A stretch of 64,000 nucleotides of DNA from Platanthera guangdongensis (Eukaryota > Streptophyta > Magnoliopsida > Asparagales > Orchidaceae): contig CM077157.1 in assembly GCA_039583875.1 (NCBI GenBank), positions 77,748,346-77,812,345 on the forward strand. The letters are read 5' to 3'. The translations under genes were made by a program, and so were the position numbers. Below, one piece after another: positions 15,438 through 54,634 of this stretch (the first letter of the stretch is position 1; each line of letters starts with the position of its first letter). Below the pieces are notes generated by a model. That model saw nothing but the letters and a program-made list of their open reading frames with translations, was not told the origin of the DNA and made no database searches.

Positions 15438-15696
15438 TGAAAGAAATTGTACCTAATCACCTAGAGGGGGGGGGGGGAGTGAATAGGTGACTAAATCTTT
15501 TTAGACTTTTTAGGCAGATTACAGATTATATCACAGAGTTATAATTACTTCTTCACAGAAAGCAATCAGCAATCACAGAATCAAACATGCACACAGTGAA
15601 CACACAGATTTATAGTGGTTCCCCAAGGTTTGGGTACATCCACTTTACCCCTTCGCCTATCTAGTAGTGTACTAGATTCGGCCAAACTCCACCACT

Positions 15697-15925
15697 ATCT
15701 CAGATCCTCAGATCTTACACTCAGAACCCCAAATGGTTCCTACAGCTCAGGCCCAAGGCCCTACAACTCAGTCTTCTCCAAAGACCTACACTCAGCCATA
15801 AGGCCTACACTCAGCCACAACAGGCCTACACTCAGAGATATGGATCTCCTACACTCAGGCACACAGGCCCTACCACTCAGCCTTTATAATTACAGGCTTA
15901 CAACTCAGATCCCTAAGGATCCTAC
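15697..15925. repeat. Array of ten small stem-loops with covarying stems (LTR D')
   Basis: The frame CTCA-[stem]-loop-[stem']-(C/T)TACA repeats ten times. Stems read on the plus strand: AGATC-ctca-GATCT, GAACC-ccaaat-GGTTC, GGCC-caa-GGCC, GTCTT-ctcca-AAGAC, GCC-ataa-GGC, GCC-acaaca-GGC, GAGAT-atgg-ATCTC, GGC-acacag-GCC, GCCT-ttataattac-AGGC, GATCC-ctaa-GGATC. Every unit is self-complementary although the stem bases differ. The array lies about 390-610 nt downstream of the LTR's TATA box, so it would be transcribed. Confidence 0.9.
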
Positions 15926-16310
15926 AAAAAATATAGAATACAAAGTATATACCTACAACTCAGAAAAAGAGAGATGAGTTGACAGGTTCTTGATGAGTTC
16001 TTGGAAGAACTCTGCTGAGATCAACCTCACTTGGCTTTCTTCAAAGCTTCTTAAATGTAGAACACAATAGGATTGATTCTCTACAGCTGATCTTCAATCA
16101 CTGCAACTTAAGATTCAGAACTAGGTCTGAACCCTTCTTCACAGCCTAGTTCCAACGGCTGTCTTCTTGGAAGGAGCTCTCTCTCTCCAACTTCTTAGAT
16201 CCTCACTTGATTCTTCAATGAATAGCTAGATGTTCTTCTTTGATTGTTGATCTCTTATTGTTAATCTATACAACTACTTTTCTGTTGACAAAATAAGCCT
16301 TTATATAGGC

Positions 16311-17425: not shown

Positions 17426-17563
17426 TAGAAACTTTTCATCTTTCCCTGCAAATACTTAACCTGCACAAGGCAACTCAAAATACATCAAATACATTTTGAT
17501 GTATATCATTGAGTAGGGTGAGGCTTCTTCAAATCAGGTACATTTAAACCAATGTACCCAACA

Positions 17564-17868
17564 ATCTCCCCCTATTTGGTGAAGTCATAACCCTTAGTCA
17601 ATGATATACACCATACATAACAAAATTACAGTATGATGTAAAACAGGATTATGCAATTAAGGAAAGTACATAAACATATATTAAACAAAACATGTGAACA
17701 CAGATATCTCAAAACAATTATGTAATAGATTTATCACACATCATATTGTTCTAACAACTTTGTCATATTCATTATACAAAAGTTTACAGAGTGTTTAAAA
17801 TCAAAAGATTACAACTGTAAACTAAAGATAATTCTATTCTATTTTTGCACAGCCTCCTTGATAACTAT
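17564..17868 (-). mobile_element. Stub of D' internal region with polypurine tract
   Basis: 17564-17579 is the polypurine tract (minus strand AAATAGGGGGAGAT). The rest is AT-rich, non-coding, similar in style to 55744-55912 of element H, and is cut at 17869 by the LTR of E. Confidence 0.7.
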
Positions 17869-20151
17869 TGTAACACCCCCTATCCGTCACATAGCATAAA
17901 GCAGTAGGTCCGGCCGGGGCCCGACGCCGTATGCCACAGACAGACCGGGTGGTTACTTATGGAAACCATCCAACCAATCTCAACATCCTACACAAAGCAT
18001 TCTAGCAGAAGCAGTTTAAAAAAAGGTTGTAAACAAGAACCCAGCATCAAAGCACGAATGTCCACTAATATAAAATAGGAATGTTATACAAAAATACCTA
18101 AAACAAGCCTTAAGGCCTTACAAAATGTTTCACTTGAATATTACATGTTTTACAAACCACGGCACGCATGCCGGTCATACATGAATAAAACAGTAAACAT
18201 TTCCATTTGGGCCTTCGAGGGCCGGCTTCACAAAAAGGGCTTTAGCCCGCTATTGACCGCTTGGTCCAGCTGCACCTGCAAGAAACAAACCACCGCACGG
18301 TGGCAAAACAAGGCAACGGTCAGCTATGCTGACCAAATTATAACGATCCCGCCCCCAACTCGGGGCGGCGATGCTCCTTCCCTGCATTTCATTAGCATAA
18401 GCGAGCAATGTATATATATATAGCCATTTCATCACAGACGTTGGCTCGCACGGCCACACGCCCCGTGCTCTCAGGGCACATTCTCAGTGAACCGTTCGAT
18501 GTCACGTCAATTAAAGCCATAGATATTCCGGACTCACCACCGCCACTTGTCTTCCTGGCCTGGGTCACGACAATTTAAGCCATTGACCGCCGAATACCCT
18601 ACTCTATGCCAATGGTAAGTGCCACGTGCCTTTAGGTCTCTTTAACAGAACGACATAGAACGGGTACGGTTCCATCTAACCCGTGCTCACATCGCAACGA
18701 CAATTTAAGCCATTTGCGCGGGTCAAACTTCCGCCGAGTCCCATTTCCATCACAAGTCACATAACCCGGTTATGTTCAAGTTGGCTCTCAAGCCACCAAG
18801 TTGGCAAGATCTCGTATCCGCCCAGTTTTCCGGGTGCACCTTTGGGTTAGTCCCCAAGGCTCCCTGCTGCAATCTACCGCGTAGAAAACCCGAAAAACAA
18901 CCAATAGCACGGAGTCTTCTCCGACATTATGCAATGCAACATCACCGATCCAGACCAACATGTCCGGGTAGGCTTCACACATCATGCCTGTGTCCGTTCT
19001 CGCTTACGAACTCTAAACAACGGGGACTTCACATATCTACCCGAAGGAACGCCTCCAACTCTCCGCAAACTCGCGAGAGCGGGCTTCCTATGCTAAGAAA
19101 GAGAGCTACTCATGCTCAAGATGAGGATCGTTACCCTTGAGTTCCTCTTTGGCGCCATTGAAAAGTAATCGGATGGAAATAACCGCACTAGCATTGCCTC
19201 CGTGGATCCGGAGTCGGCTTGCGATTCGGAGCTCCGAAGCTCCTCCAATGGCGGATCTAGCTCCTTCTTCCTCCCTTGGCTCTCCTCTCTCTCCAAGGAT
19301 TTAGAAAGATGATAAGGTATGAAAAGTGAGGGTTTTCCAAGTCCACTCACGGGTATATCCCTTCAGGAACAACCCCCAGCCGTTGGATCTTCAGTTAAAG
19401 AAATGAACAGCTTCGATTCGGGGCTGAAATGCCCAATCTGGACCGAACACGGCCTGGCACACGCCCGTGTCCAGGGCTGTGTGCCGCATTCGCCGTGAAA
19501 ATCGAATCGCCTGGAACCTCACACGGGTATCAAACACGCCCGTGTTCGAGCTGACACGCCCGTGTTCCACCTCACACGGCCGTGTGGTCGGCCGTGTACC
19601 CCATGATTTTTCCCCATTTTTAACCGGAGCACTGCACGGGTTCTAGTACATGCCCGTGTCCTTGCCCGTGTCACCTTGACACGCCTGGGCCCTAGGCCGT
19701 GTACACGGGACACTTCGTCGAGTGAAGATCGACGATTTGATGACACGGCCTTGGACACGCCCGTGTCCTAGGCCGTGTGCCTTGCCTCGACGATCGTCGA
19801 GGGAATCTCGACGACTCCCCGGGACGATCGTCGACACGGGTCGACACGCCCTGCGACACGCCCGTGTCGCAGGCTGTGTGCCCACTCTCGACGAATCGTC
19901 GAGTAAATCTCGACGACTTCGTGGCTAAGTGTCGACACGGGTCGACACGCCCTGCGACACGCCCGTGTCGCAGTCCGTGTGCCCACTCTCGACGAATCGT
20001 CGAGTAAATCTCGACGTCTTCGCGGCTAAGTGTCGACACACGCTTGACACGCCCTGGGACACGCCCGTGTCCCAGGCCGTGTGCCTGCTGCCAGAACCCA
20101 AACTGGCCCAAAACGTCCCCCTTTTGCTCCTTTGAGTTTCGGGGCGTTACA
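17869..20151 (-). repeat. 3' LTR of element E
   Basis: Minus strand TGTAACGCCCCG... to ...GGGGGTGTTACA, 2283 bp. It contains CACGGGCGTG-type hairpins and TCGACGA/TCGTCGA repeats at about 19440-20090. It also carries a copy of the predicted gag exon 1 at 19135-19158 (MAPKRNSR) followed by the GTAACG donor. Confidence 0.9.
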
Positions 20152-23666: not shown

Positions 23667-24755
23667 CTGTCACCACATCAGCTTGTTTAATGGCCTCTTG
23701 TTGGCCAAGATTGTAAACCCTTGGTTGGGCCGGAGCATAATGGGATGCGGTCGACTCCACCGCCTTACCCTTCTCTTCATAAGTAGCTCCCGGCCTCCTC
23801 TCGGACTTAGGACGTCCGCTCCAACAATCACGGGCAAAGTGCCCCGTCTTTCCACATGTAAAGCACGCGCCCGGGGTCCGACTCGTAGTCTCCCCAGAAG
23901 CACCAGAAGGAGCTGGACCCGAAGTCCTATGCTTATTGAAAGCCCTCCGATAGCCGAACTTTGTAGTAGTCAGCACTTTGTATTCAGATTTCTTCTTACC
24001 CAAGCTTTTCTTTGCTTGTACGTTCTTCATGTCCTTCTCCAAGGACCGGGCAGTATTGACCAAGGTTAGGAAACCCTGCGTCATCGGCCCCGAGAGTAGT
24101 AATCTCAACTCATTTCTCAATCCTTCATAGAAACGATTAGTCTTGCGCTCCTCATCCATAATGGTGGAGCTAGCATAACGACTCAGACGAGTAAACTCGT
24201 GGAGATATTCATCCACGCTCCTCTCACCCTGTACCAACTTTAGGAACTCATTCTCCAACGCTATCTTCTGCGTCGAAGGGAGGTATCTAGCCAAGAACAA
24301 TCCCGAGAACTCTTCCATCGGAACGTTTACAAGTTGTCTACCTCTCAAATGATGCAGCTCCAATCCTTCCCACCACATTCTCGCTTCACCGTCCAAAAGG
24401 AACGTAGCGATGGTGGTCATTTGCCACTCCTCCGCCTCCGTTGCTATCATAACTCTCTTCACCCTGGAGAGCCAGTCTTCAGCCTGATATGGGGTTCCCA
24501 ACCCCGAGAATAACGGAGGGTTAAAGCTCATTACATGCTTTAGCTGCCTCTCAGTTGCCCTCCTTGGCACCACCGGTTCTACAACCACTTGCTCCACTCT
24601 CCTCGGCTCAGCCTCTTGCAGAGGTTCTTGCTCCATCACAGGAGCGGGCTGCTGCGTTTGTCTTCCAGGCTGCGCATTAATCACGGCCAACACCGCTTCA
24701 GCCACCAATCGAATATTCTCGGCCGACAGAGGTGTTGCGGGAGCAACATCCGGTG
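23667..24755 (-). CDS. gag: Element E gag, main part of predicted exon 2 (5' end beyond F)
   Basis: Open without a stop. It has Retrotrans_gag blocks (FNPPLFSGLGTPYQAEDWLS, ARMWWEGLELHHLRGRQL, ERKTNRFYEGLRNELRLLL) and an intact CCHC knuckle (CFTCGKTGHFARDC) near 23850-23895. It ends at VVT before the intron donor. Its 5' 55 nt lie at 34227-34281 on the other side of F, and the two halves join in frame through the CGGTG target site. Confidence 0.85.
24751..24755. other. Target-site duplication of element F (left)
   Basis: CGGTG, identical to 34222-34226. Confidence 0.95.
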
Positions 24756-24830
24756 TGTAACACCCCGAAACTCAAAGGAGCAAAGGGGGACGTTTTGGGC
24801 CAGTTTTGGTTTCTGGCTGACGGCACACGG

Positions 24831-25160
24831 CCTGGGACACGGGCGTGTCCCAGGGCGTGTCAAGTGTGTGCCGACACTTAGTCGCGAAGTCGTCGAGTTA
24901 TACTCGACGATTCGTCGAGAAAGGGCACACGGCCTGCGACACGGGCGTGTCGCAGGGCGTGTCGACCCGTGTCGACACTTAGCCGTGAAATCGTCGAGTT
25001 ATTCTCGACGATTCGTCGAGAATGGGCACACGGCCTGCGATACGGGCGTGTCGCAGGGCGTGTCGACCCGTGTCGACGATCGTCAAGGTGAAATCGTCGA
25101 GATTCACTCGACGATCGTCGAGACAAGGCACACGGCCTAGGACACGGGCGTGTCCAAGGC
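24831..25160. repeat. Four hairpins at about 102-bp period in LTR F, with covarying stems
   Basis: Inverted repeats start at 24831, 24933, 25033 and 25136. The stems are CCTGGGACACG-gg-CGTGTCCCAGG, CCTGCGACACG-gg-CGTGTCGCAGG (twice, one with a mismatch) and CCTAGGACACG-gg-CGTGTCCAAGG. Each is flanked by ACACGG and GGGCGTGTC. Between them lie GTGTCGACAC and TCGTCGAGT-n3-ACTCGACGA. The same block is in LTR2 (32006-32340) and in E. Confidence 0.9.
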
Positions 25161-25751
25161 CGTGTCATCCAGTCGTCGTTCTCCCCTCGACGAAATGTCC
25201 CGTGTACACGGCCTGGGGGCCCAGGCGTGTCAATGTGACACGGGCAAGGACACGGGCGTGTCCTAGAACCCGTGCAGTGCTCGGGTTGGAAACGGGGGAA
25301 AAATCATGGGGTACACGGCCGGCTACACGGCCGTGTCATCTGGAACACGGGCGTGTCAACTCGAACACGGGCGTGTTCGATACCCGTGTGCGTGTTCAGA
25401 AGATTTGATTTTGACGGCGAATGCGGCACACGGCCCTGGACACGGGCGTGTGCCAGGCCGTGTTCGGCCCAGTTTGGGCATTTCAGCCCCGAATCAAAGC
25501 CGCTCGTTTTCTTAGGTTGAGATCCGACGGCTGGGGATGGTTCCTGAGAGGATATACACGGGTTTGACTTAAGAAAAATCCATTTTTCCTTCACTTGATC
25601 ATCTCTCCAAACCCTTGGAGAAAGAGGAAAGCTATTGGAGGAAGAAGAGCTAGATCCGCCATTGGAGGAGCTTCGGAGCTCCGAATCGCAAGCCGACTCC
25701 GGATCCACGGAGGCAACGCAAGCGCGGTGATTTCTATCCGATTACATTTCG

Positions 25752-31930: not shown

Positions 31931-34221
31931 TGTAACACCCCGAAACTCAAAGGAGCAAAGGGGGACGTTTTGGGCCAGTTTTGGTTTCTGGCTGACGGCA
32001 CACGGCCTGGGACACGGGCGTGTCCCAGGGCGTGTCAAGTGTGTGCCGACACTTAGTCGCGAAGTCGTCGAGTTATACTCGACGATTCGTCGAGAAAGGG
32101 CACACGGCCTGCGACACGGGCGTGTCGCAGGGCGTGTCGACCCGTGTCGACACTTAGCCGTGAAATCGTCGAGTTATTCTCGACGATTCGTCGAGAATGG
32201 GCACACGGCCTGCGACACGGGCGTGTCGCAGGGCGTGTCGACCCGTGTCGACGATCGTCAAGGTGAAATCGTCGAGATTCACTCGACGATCGTCGAGACA
32301 AGGCACACGGCCTAGGACACGGGCGTGTCCAAGGCCGTGTCATCCAGTCGTCGTTCTCCCCTCGACGAAATGTCCCGTGTACACGGCCTGGGGGCCCAGG
32401 CGTGTCAATGTGACACGGGCAAGGACACGGGCGTGTCCTAGAACCCGTGCAGTGCTCGGGTTGGAAACGGGGGAAAAAATCATGGGGTACACGGCCGGCT
32501 ACACGGCCGTGTCATCTGGAACACGGGCGTGTCAACTCGAACACGGGCGTGTTCGATACCCGTGTGCGTGTTCAGAAGATTCGATTTTGACGGCGAATGC
32601 GGCACACGGCCCTGGACACGGGCGTGTGCCAGGCCGTGTTCGGCCCAGTTTGGGCATTTCAGCCCCGAATCAAAGCCGCTCGTTTTCTTAGGTTGAGATC
32701 CGACGGCTGGGGATGGTTCCTGAGAGGATATACACGGGTTTGACTTAAGAAAAATCCATTTTTCTTCACTTGATCATCTCTCCAAACCCTTGGAGAAAGA
32801 GGAAAGCTATTGGAGGAAGAAGAGCTAGATCCGCCATTGGAGGAGCTTCGGAGCTCCGAATCGCAAGCCGACTCCGGATCCACGGAGGCAACGCAAGCGC
32901 GGTGATTTCTATCCGATTACATTTCGATGGCGCCAAAGAGGAACGCAAGGGTAACGATCCTCACTTGTGAGCATGATAGCTCTCTTTCTTAGCATAGGAA
33001 GCCCTCTCTCGCGAGTTTGCGAAGAGTTGGAGGCGTTCCTTCGGGTAGATATGTAAAGTCCCCGTTGTTTAGCGTCCGTATGCGAGAACGGACATAGGCA
33101 TTTTGGTTGAAGCCTACCCGGACATGTTAGTCCGGATCGGTGATGTTGCATTGCATAAGGCCGGAGAAGACTCCGTGCTATTTGGTGTTTTTCGGGTTTT
33201 CTACGCGGTAGATTGCAGCAGGGAGCCTTGGGGACTAACCCAAAGGTGCACCGGAAAACTGGGCGGACACGAGGTCTTGCCAACTTGGTGGCTTGGAAGC
33301 CAACTTGAACATAACCGGGTTATGTGACTTGTGATGAAAATGGGACTCGGTAGAAGTTTGACCTGCGCATATGGTTTAAAATTACCGTTGCGGGCGCATA
33401 TGGTTTAAATTACCGTTGCGTTGTGAGCACGGGTTAGATGGAACCGTACCCACTCTATGTCGTTCGGATTAGGGCCGTTGGCATAGATGAGGGTCTTCGG
33501 CGGTCTATGGTTTTAATTACCGTGACCCATGCCAGGAAGACAAACTGCTCATTGTTTGGCCGTCCAAGAGAGGATGGCGGTGAGTCGGCAGACTTAGACT
33601 GCGTTCACCAAGAATGTGCCCTGAGTGCACGGGGTGTGTGGCCGTTGAGCCTCCGCCTGTGATGAAATGACTATATTTAAAATGCTCGCTTATGCTAATG
33701 AAATGCAGGGAAGGAGCATCGCCGCCCCGAGTTGGGGGCGGGATCGTTATAATTTGGTCAGCATTGCTGACCGTTGCTTTGTTTGCCACCGTGCGGTGGT
33801 TTGTTTGCTTGCAGGTGCAGCTGGACCGAGCGGTCAATAGCGGGCTAAAGCCCTTTTTTGTGAAGCTGGCCCTCGAAGGCCCAAGTGAAATGTTTTCTAT
33901 TTTTATTCATGTATGGCCGGCCTGCGTGCCGAGGTTGGTAAATCATGTAATAGACAAGTGAAACTTTTTGTAAGGCCTTAAGGCCAATGTTTGGGTATTT
34001 TGTATACATTCCTAAATGTGGTATTAGTGGACATTCGTGCTCTTATGCTGGGTTCTTGTTTACAACTTATATTAACTGCTTCCGCTAGAATGCTCTGTGT
34101 AGGACGTTGAGATTGGTTGGATGGTTTCCATAAGTAACCACCCGGTCTGTCTGTGGCATATGGCGTCGGGCCCCGACCGGACCTACTGTTATATGCTATG
34201 CGACGGATAGGGGGTGTTACA
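31931..34221 (+). repeat. 3' LTR of element F
   Basis: 2291 bp, nearly identical to LTR1. It repeats the hairpin array (32006-32340) and the exon 1 copy (at about 32926-32949). Confidence 0.95.
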
Positions 34222-53756: not shown

Positions 53757-53973
53757 TGAAAGATAATAGTTGCCAACCTAAATCACCTAGAGGGGGGTGA
53801 ATTGGTGAGTTGTGCGTCTTTTTGCAGAATAAAAAAAATCTCAATCAAAGCACAGAACTATCTACCAAACAAGCAAACACAGACGAGGCAATATTTATAG
53901 TGGTTCCCCAACCTTGGGTACATCCACTTTCCCACACCGATCTAGCAATATAATAGACTCGGCTACTCCACTA

Positions 53974-54112
53974 TCTCGGATTGGAAAACAATCTTACCCT
54001 CGGAACAAGGTTCCTACAAACTCGATCCACAAACGGATCTACACTCGGAAGACAAAACTTCCTACAATCTCGGAGTTGAACAACCCCTACACTCGGAGAA
54101 ATCTTCTCCTAC
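53974..54112. repeat. Array of six small stem-loops with covarying stems (LTR H)
   Basis: Frame CTC-[stem]-loop-[stem']-TACA. Stems: GATTG-gaaaa-CAATC, GGAAC-aag-GTTCC, GATCC-acaaac-GGATC, GGAAG-acaaaa-CTTCC, GTTG-aa-CAAC, GGAGAA-atc-TTCTCC. It sits in the same place as the array at 15697-15925, but the stems differ. Confidence 0.9.
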
Positions 54113-54504
54113 AATAATAAAATACAGCAGTACAGAAATACAAATTGTAAATATCTAGTTCAGATCTGCAACAGAAATCAGAAAATCCTTCTTCTAGGCG
54201 TGCGGCTTTATCAGAATATTGAAGAAGAATTTCGGCAAGATCAGATCTGAACCTTCTCGACTTTACACGATCGAAAGAGTAGATGAACCATTGAGCGGAG
54301 ATCTCGATCTGTAGAGTCTACTTAATCTGAATCCTCTGAAAAGAAGAAACCCTAGCCGGTCGGAATTTAGCGATGGCGGCGGCGGTGAGTTTCCGGTTCT
54401 TGCAGAGAGAGAGAGGAGACAGAGTTCTTTTGGAAAGAGACGGCTGCAAAAACTTAGAATAATTTTCTTATTGAAAACTTAGGGTTTGTCGGTTTGACAA
54501 GACC

Positions 54505-54511
54505 TTTTATA
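54505..54511 (-). promoter_or_regulatory. TATA box of LTR H
   Basis: CTCCTATAAAAGGTC on the minus strand, between the CTCGAG array and the stem-loop array. Confidence 0.65.
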
Positions 54512-54634
54512 GGAGACAAGAAGATTAGACTTAAATGATTCATAAAGAGAAAGACACGTGGACCAATCACATCGAAGTTTAAGAATAAGACCGTTAGGTT
54601 TGGACTTAAGGAATTTCTGAAAATTGTAAGTTAG

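Follow-up and report, generated by a model that had tools for sequence, protein, structure and literature searches.

Two long terminal repeats (LTRs) of Platanthera guangdongensis, here called D' and H, carry tandem arrays of short self-complementary units in which the frame stays the same while the bases inside it differ from unit to unit, which raises the question of what keeps these units paired, in which molecule, and for what role. Both LTRs lie within the window, the whole 64,000-nucleotide stretch of DNA analyzed here, and related leaders were collected from the rest of the genome. The arrays are tandem short hairpins with covarying stems and a near-fixed basal G-C pair, they belong to an AUG-poor leader, and they recur in many diverged leaders; the scope of the array, the leaders and the covariation is this one genome.

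Anatomy and affinity of the D' and H LTRs

The sense strand of both elements is the minus strand, along which the features follow one another as polypurine tract, LTR start, U3 palindromes, TATA box, array, marker block and polyC signal. They are given below in window coordinates; here and throughout, comparisons with published elements refer to the accessible portions of Bousios et al. (2010; PMC2829016) and of PMC10760457.

15438..17563, minus strand: D' LTR, 2126 bp, starting with TGTTGGG at 17563 and ending with TTTCA at 15438
17562..17573, minus strand: D' polypurine tract AGGGGGAG, then AT and the TG that opens the LTR; motif as in PMC2829016
16463..17420, minus strand: D' U3 array of near-identical GTGTCGACAC palindromes, resembling known Sirevirus repeated motifs (PMC2829016, Table 3)
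16298..16309, minus strand: D' TATA box CCTATATAAAGG; the transcription start is nominal, ~30 nt downstream
15995..16012, minus strand: D' leader hairpin GAGUUCU-ucca-AGAACUC
15699..15927, minus strand: D' array of ten tandem hairpin units, frame UGUAGG...CUGAG
15879..15898, minus strand: D' second unit, AGCCU...AUUAUAAA...GGCU, with stem and loop similar in several other leaders
15660..15676, minus strand: D' post-array hairpin UCUAGUA-cac-UACUAGA
15614..15644, minus strand: D' two-tier hairpin AGUGG...CCCA...UGGG...CCACU, the conserved block that serves as marker for these leaders
15458..15489, minus strand: D' polyC "integrase signal" near the LTR end; motif as in PMC2829016
55739..55753, minus strand: H polypurine tract variant AGGGGGAA, then AT and an LTR start reading TA
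54503..54513, minus strand: H TATA box CCTATAAAAGG
53975..54114, minus strand: H array of six tandem hairpin units, frame UGUAGG...CCGAG with variants
53899..53928, minus strand: H two-tier hairpin block, as in D'
53784..53801, minus strand: H polyC signal

The D' element is truncated, with the polypurine tract and a piece of internal sequence upstream of its LTR, and the extent of this LTR is supported by an LTR match of 2.03 kb between the pair of loci L006 and L007. The original prediction described these LTRs as Sirevirus-like, and most of the landmarks tested are present. In the accessible text, Bousios et al. (2010) describe Sirevirus polypurine tracts with an inverted repeat around the last one, U3 motifs, a TATA box, a primer binding site junction and a polyC signal. 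The polypurine tract AGGGGGAG followed by AT/TG occurs in the window copy of D' and at one of seven loci (L004), and the 9-nt primer binding site is found as TTTCA-AGTGG-TATCAGAGC at three of the seven D' loci (L003, L005 and L006) and in L055. The published arrangement is 9 nt after CA and a 5-nt spacer, ATTGG or AGTGG, with G at the second spacer position as a published variant (PMC2829016). Both window LTRs have the polyC integrase signal near the LTR end as well as a TATA box near the LTR middle. H has AGGGGGAA with a TA start, its final A being as reported for ToRTL1 and Tnd-1 (PMC2829016). The U3 palindromes of D' (GTGTCGACAC) and H (TACTCGAGTA) are present but lack the CGG-CCG core; U3 repeats are not genus-wide (13 of 21 published Sirevirus elements), and those of Tnd-1 are likewise without this core (PMC2829016). 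RVT_2 was detected in the polymerase piece of one D' element, most of the named matches among the 120 listed (of 7853) being Ty1/copia polyproteins of plants or plant proteins annotated as uncharacterised. The protein match P0101, a plant-type copia polymerase filed under the bacterium Robertmurraya kyonggiensis, is probably a contamination.

Similarly to the leader arrays, the RM boxes of Sireviruses consist of many palindromic LTR units, and D' and H have arrays of that kind as well (GTGTCGACAC, TACTCGAGTA); the RM boxes, however, repeat a single palindrome at high identity and lie upstream of the TATA box (PMC2829016), whereas the leader array lies downstream of it and its stems differ per unit within a fixed frame. 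The accessible account of Sirevirus LTRs in PMC2829016 names no array downstream of the TATA box. In maize, secondary structure is also concentrated in Copia LTRs, within miRNA-like regions, but the commonest named motif there is one palindrome, CACCGGAC...GTCCGGTG, and the accessible text reports no covarying tandem units (PMC10760457). Rfam 15 at the gathering score gave no match anywhere in the window. The original prediction knew of no description of a covarying array of this type, and none was found among the titles and abstract openings of the literature searched, in which subscription papers were incompletely covered.

Frame-locked pairing and covariation

As predicted, the sixteen window units are self-complementary in one frame. 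The ten D' units abut without gaps from 15927 to 15699 and the six H units run from 54114 to 53975, each of them a short hairpin flanked by UGUAG, or a sequence close to it, on one side and by CUGAG (D') or CGAG (H) on the other. All 16 have at least three contiguous Watson-Crick pairs and 12 have at least four; the remaining four, units 3, 5 and 6 of D' together with unit 2 of H, have three, the last being a 6-bp stem when one G-U pair is included. Shuffles of the same composition never reached the observed summed stems: D' sums to 43 bp against a maximum of 30 in 20,000 shuffles of unit interiors and 34 in 7,427 half-mixings between units, and H to 29 against maxima of 21 (20,000 interior shuffles) and 20 (7,401 half-mixings). 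A window-wide scan for the frame with a stem of at least 4 bp returned 16 places on the minus strand, 12 of these inside the two arrays, and five on the plus strand, compared with 3.3 per strand in shuffles. When hairpins of at least four pairs were counted per leader (527-621 nt) irrespective of frame, the count lay beyond all 100 block shuffles in one of nine leaders, D'; the signal is frame-locked pairing, not hairpin number.

Evenly spaced samples of the 4.25 Gb genome, 20 of 10 kb and then four more, were scanned for the marker block that follows the array. It was present in seven of the first 20 samples and, among the later four, twice in L054 and once in L055; L046, with a diverged marker block, was picked up by its hairpin cluster, and two leaders that ran off their samples (L050 and L051) were completed with added sequence. 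This gave 15 leaders including D' and H, one of which (L054a) is a near relative of D'. In-frame arrays were found in 13 of the 15 (11 of 13 beyond D' and H). The two off-frame leaders, L049 with hairpins at other junctions and L051 with a different design, were left out of the unit counts. Arrays hold 7 to 17 strict-frame units, an odd spurious one included, with 16 in L046 and 17 in L050, both of which have more than twenty by eye. The weakest array is that of L033, where two of seven frame units have at least three contiguous pairs; array starts were set by eye, and some of the units cut by the regular expression have wrong borders or are spurious (one each in L033 and H), so that the pairing counts come out too low. 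Genome-wide, the marker block occurs at 25,189 places at up to three mismatches (reversed control, 0), the arrays being known from the sampled leaders only, and a scan of viral contigs for the block found none.

Several features of individual leaders were noted along the way. On the minus strand of L054, upstream of its second marker block, several hairpin units are block-duplicated within one array (L054b), a possible route of array growth. In L051 (1-700) the same block and polyC signal accompany TTTGAGCACCTTATCAAAAGCTCA-type repeats, which replace the framed units. The D' second unit (15879-15898, AGCC...UUAUAAA...GGCU) has counterparts alike in loop and stem in L036, L039, L040, L047, L054 and L055, and could be a hairpin-embedded polyadenylation-type signal, or else some special binding site. 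The counterpart of the D' leader hairpin at 15995..16012 reads AGUUCU-ucca-AGAACU in L047, and the post-array hairpin (D' 15660..15676) has arms that differ yet remain complementary in L049 and L036.

The expression TA[AG]...[CT]GAG, which uses no pairing information, defined 140 units in 13 arrays, 106 with at least three contiguous pairs and 82 with at least four. The stems of the first 124 units (12 arrays) add up to 474; mixing halves across arrays gave a mean of 251 and a maximum of 279 in 500 runs (z ~20), and mixing them within arrays a mean of 272 (maximum 315). Dropping three duplicates (137 units) and seven distinct units shorter than 13 nt left 130 distinct units of at least 13 nt, in which mirror positions were counted from both unit ends with no fitting. 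Mutual information at mirror positions 2-5 is 1.07, 1.17, 0.73 and 0.70 bits (130 units, 13 arrays), with maxima of 0.18, 0.18, 0.16 and 0.24 bits in 2000 permutations and values of at most 0.45 bits off the mirror diagonal. All four Watson-Crick pair types occur at each of these positions, and the pairs are Watson-Crick in 109/130, 111/130, 95/130 and 65/101 units, whereas the marginals predict 39.7, 37.2, 39.1 and 28.4. Covariation at mirror position 6 (n=65) is not significant, its 0.415 bits falling below the permutation maximum of 0.443. The 81 of 130 units with at least four contiguous pairs hold 51 distinct 5' stems, and 65 of the 81 have loops of 3-6 nt. Keeping one unit per distinct 5' pentamer (n=57) leaves pairs 2-5 in 41/57, 45/57, 40/57 and 32/49 units, against 16.2, 16.3, 15.4 and 12.6 expected. 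The base of the hairpin behaves differently from these stems: position 1 is nearly fixed, 121 of the 130 units having G and 118 having C there, so that pair 1 is G-C in 111/130 and carries no information. The search frame did not require this G-C pair, unlike pair 0, which belongs to the frame, and the junction UA[AG]...[CU]GAG, which sits in it and whose constancy is no independent result.

Outside the arrays, 1028 distinct same-frame matches, drawn from both strands of 24 samples of ten kb, pair at a near-chance rate that exceeds expectation by no more than 13% (pairs 2-4: 267, 289 and 297 against 255.6, 262.2 and 263.3). Stems thus covary from unit to unit, as the original prediction held, and chance, which it considered hard to invoke, is rejected on the basis of the half-mixings and of the same-frame matches outside arrays. 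Uncompensated variation of stems in related copies had been named as one outcome that would speak against it. Variation inside the D' family was largely of this kind, unlike that between families and units. In the 28 D' copies read (the window copy and 27 others, among 40 places listed), both sides of a pair had changed in one cell, to T-T, with no compensated cell, and stems are barely less variable than the rest (46/2408 against 114/4760 cells); uncompensated changes of this kind are expected from decay after insertion. When six related leaders were simply aligned, 8 of the 68 pairs predicted had changed on both sides with pairing kept in at least one sequence, and the RNAalifold covariation term for the six was not favourable (+1.32), which we attribute to gaps and misaligned units.

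The array as part of the leader

The arrays lie downstream of the TATA box and upstream of the primer binding site. With the transcription start nominal, this position supports the prediction that they belong to the transcribed part of the LTR, and the array looks like part of a scanned 5' leader. In 14 arrays AUG occurs 28 times against 104 expected from dinucleotides (CAT 22 against 25), and in the 200 nt before 13 arrays 12 times against 37 (CAT 35 against 46). Measured against plain base composition, AUG counts are 28 against 121 and 17 against 72, and CAT is depleted too, less than AUG (22 against 51 and 53 against 69). ATC is in excess in the arrays (102 against 42); this and other word departures are expected because the units are repeated. 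At the gag position of L006 an open reading frame begins 99 nt beyond the primer binding site, 943 nt from the nominal start of transcription and with three AUGs ahead of it, and it runs without a stop for 464 codons, as far as the locus extends. The corresponding AUG opens frames of 215 codons in L005 and 120 in L003, with three and four AUGs before it. One upstream AUG recurs in the two-tier hairpin of the marker block (15614-15644, 53899-53928), where L033 and L036 have ACG.

Little is known of the packaging and translation signals of plant LTR retrotransposons. We tentatively favour, at somewhat less than an even chance, a reading of the array as a modular structured RNA in a Sirevirus-type 5' leader, selected in the sense RNA as a multivalent Gag docking and packaging signal. 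As stem sequences are interchangeable while the base is held nearly constant, a protein would most likely contact the base and junction, and the hairpins would be exchangeable struts presenting the repeated junction (...CUGAG UGUAGG...) to a protein. The likeliest such protein would be the element's own Gag, the first candidate because genomic RNA contains the leader and the count of sites is free to vary; the array would then dock Gag multivalently and mark the genomic RNA for packaging, with avidity set by the number of units, which runs from six (H) to over twenty as judged by eye (L046 and L050). A parallel is offered by retroviral and Ty1 packaging leaders and by the multiple degenerate packaging stem-loops of single-stranded RNA viruses, where a coat protein of the element's own recognises a set of hairpins that share a short fixed motif but vary in their stems, as Gag would here. 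The array differs from these in having up to more than twenty head-to-tail units and in a fixed part that lies at the base and junction rather than in the loop.

The strongest alternative concerns translation, and the Gag packaging and translation roles may both hold. Small autonomous hairpins could stop a leader of ~0.9 kb from folding into long, stable structures and so let ribosomes reach the gag AUG by scanning or shunting; stems would be free to vary since local pairing alone matters. The depletion of sense AUGs in the arrays and in the upstream leader is better explained this way than by Gag docking, and a gag-position start ~940 nt downstream, behind three short upstream open reading frames (L006), fits it as well, as do the short stems and the loops of 3-6 nt in most of the well-paired units. 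On its own, however, it leaves the near-fixed G-C base beside freely varying stems unexplained, and sense folding is not cleanly local; taken as the whole explanation we consider it unlikely.

More loosely than the Gag docking reading itself, we suggest that the arrays could represent a new class of RNA architecture in Sirevirus-type elements, a beads-on-a-string design in which what is inherited is pairing and junction rather than the sequence of the stems, units evolve as modules that can replace one another, and unit number tunes Gag avidity. If so, tens of thousands of marker blocks in one genome would constitute a natural covariation experiment. The array is in any case a defined, testable RNA element, with strong covariation, a near-fixed base and a marker at those 25,189 genome places. 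Sireviruses make up 21% of the maize genome (PMC10760457) and the LTRs of Sirevirus elements share only 3.9% identity (PMC2829016), so a structure present in such LTRs would be missed by sequence similarity alone.

The strand probably under selection

The mismatches at pairs 2-4 of otherwise paired units comprise 16 G-T, 2 A-C and 24 others, where the marginals predict 40.8, 27.8 and 131.2 (low A-C share, p 0.007), and three other settings gave G-T to A-C ratios of 15 to 2, 19 to 3 and 21 to 4. With a free register there are 20 G-U against 1 A-C, compared with 14.6 to 6.6 in mixed units; other penalties gave 7 to 0 (null 3.2 to 1.9) and 22 to 2 (null 18.2 to 8.3). In the 28-copy D' family, where differences are taken as mostly later than insertion, changes produced 8 G-T and 9 A-C cells, and stem C-to-T and G-to-A changes number 9 each. 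Against this 8:9 background the Fisher p is 0.0019 for 20:1 and, one-sided, 0.010 for 16:2, a test of 18 cells of which some are shared by descent. The excess of G-U over A-C therefore favours pairing selected in the sense RNA.

Predicted folding leans the other way. At a span of 60, the mean pair probability of unit stems is 0.44 in the sense fold (46 of 106 units above 0.5) and 0.69 in the antisense fold (74 of 106). When real stems were compared with randomised ones (104 units, 12 arrays), the sense strand scored 0.437 against 0.472 (z -1.3) and the antisense strand 0.692 against 0.632 (z 2.3), a design test slightly in favour of the antisense strand. The fold z values for D' and H are -4.9 and -4.8 antisense and -2.2 and -1.8 sense. 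Wobble pairing competes in the sense model because the sense linkers are G/U-rich, and protein binding or cotranscriptional folding could override the predicted sense fold in the cell. The sense RNA as the selected strand is thus supported, but more weakly than the covariation itself.

These folding results are the main argument for minus-strand cDNA (strong-stop DNA) or an antisense transcript as the selected molecule, in which a G-poor linker would leave clean hairpins, for example for strand transfer; the antisense strand folds more cleanly (0.69 against 0.44) and slightly better than with randomised stems. Selection there predicts A-C mismatches at least as frequent as G-U in sense coordinates, and 2 to 16, or 1 to 20 under the other register rule, were seen, which leaves it quite unlikely. 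Very unlikely, in our view, is an origin without structural selection, by snap-back or template-switch copying during reverse transcription that makes and renews palindromes which tandem duplication then multiplies. Such copying is in keeping with how widely arrays differ in size (six units in H, but 16 in strict frame in L046 and 17 in L050) and with the block duplication in L054b, but DNA palindromes should show no preference for G-U over A-C, and the near-fixed base pair beside saturated stems also speaks against it. Of the two causes offered originally, selection on RNA hairpins is supported, and snap-back copying is disfavoured by the stem mismatches (16 G-U to 2 A-C).

Most stems here are of 3-6 bp, too short alone as Dicer substrates, and a host-side role in which small RNA silencing acts on the hairpins or draws its small RNAs from them, along the lines suggested for the U3 palindromes of maize Sireviruses, is highly improbable. 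What it has in its favour is the concentration of miRNA-like structure in Copia LTRs and the excess of small RNAs cited at Sirevirus palindromes in the accessible text of PMC10760457.

Other palindrome arrays were noticed during this work. Dense arrays of the CCTGGGACACGGGCGTGTCCCAGG and TCGTCGAG...CTCGACGA type lie at 19667-20126, 24733-25380 and 31974-32556 of the window and at 6579-7094 of L037, within other genomic repeats that appear to be LTR elements. A cluster of 22 short palindromes, mostly TGTCG(C)GGGGGCGACA, occupies positions 4516-5063 of L053.
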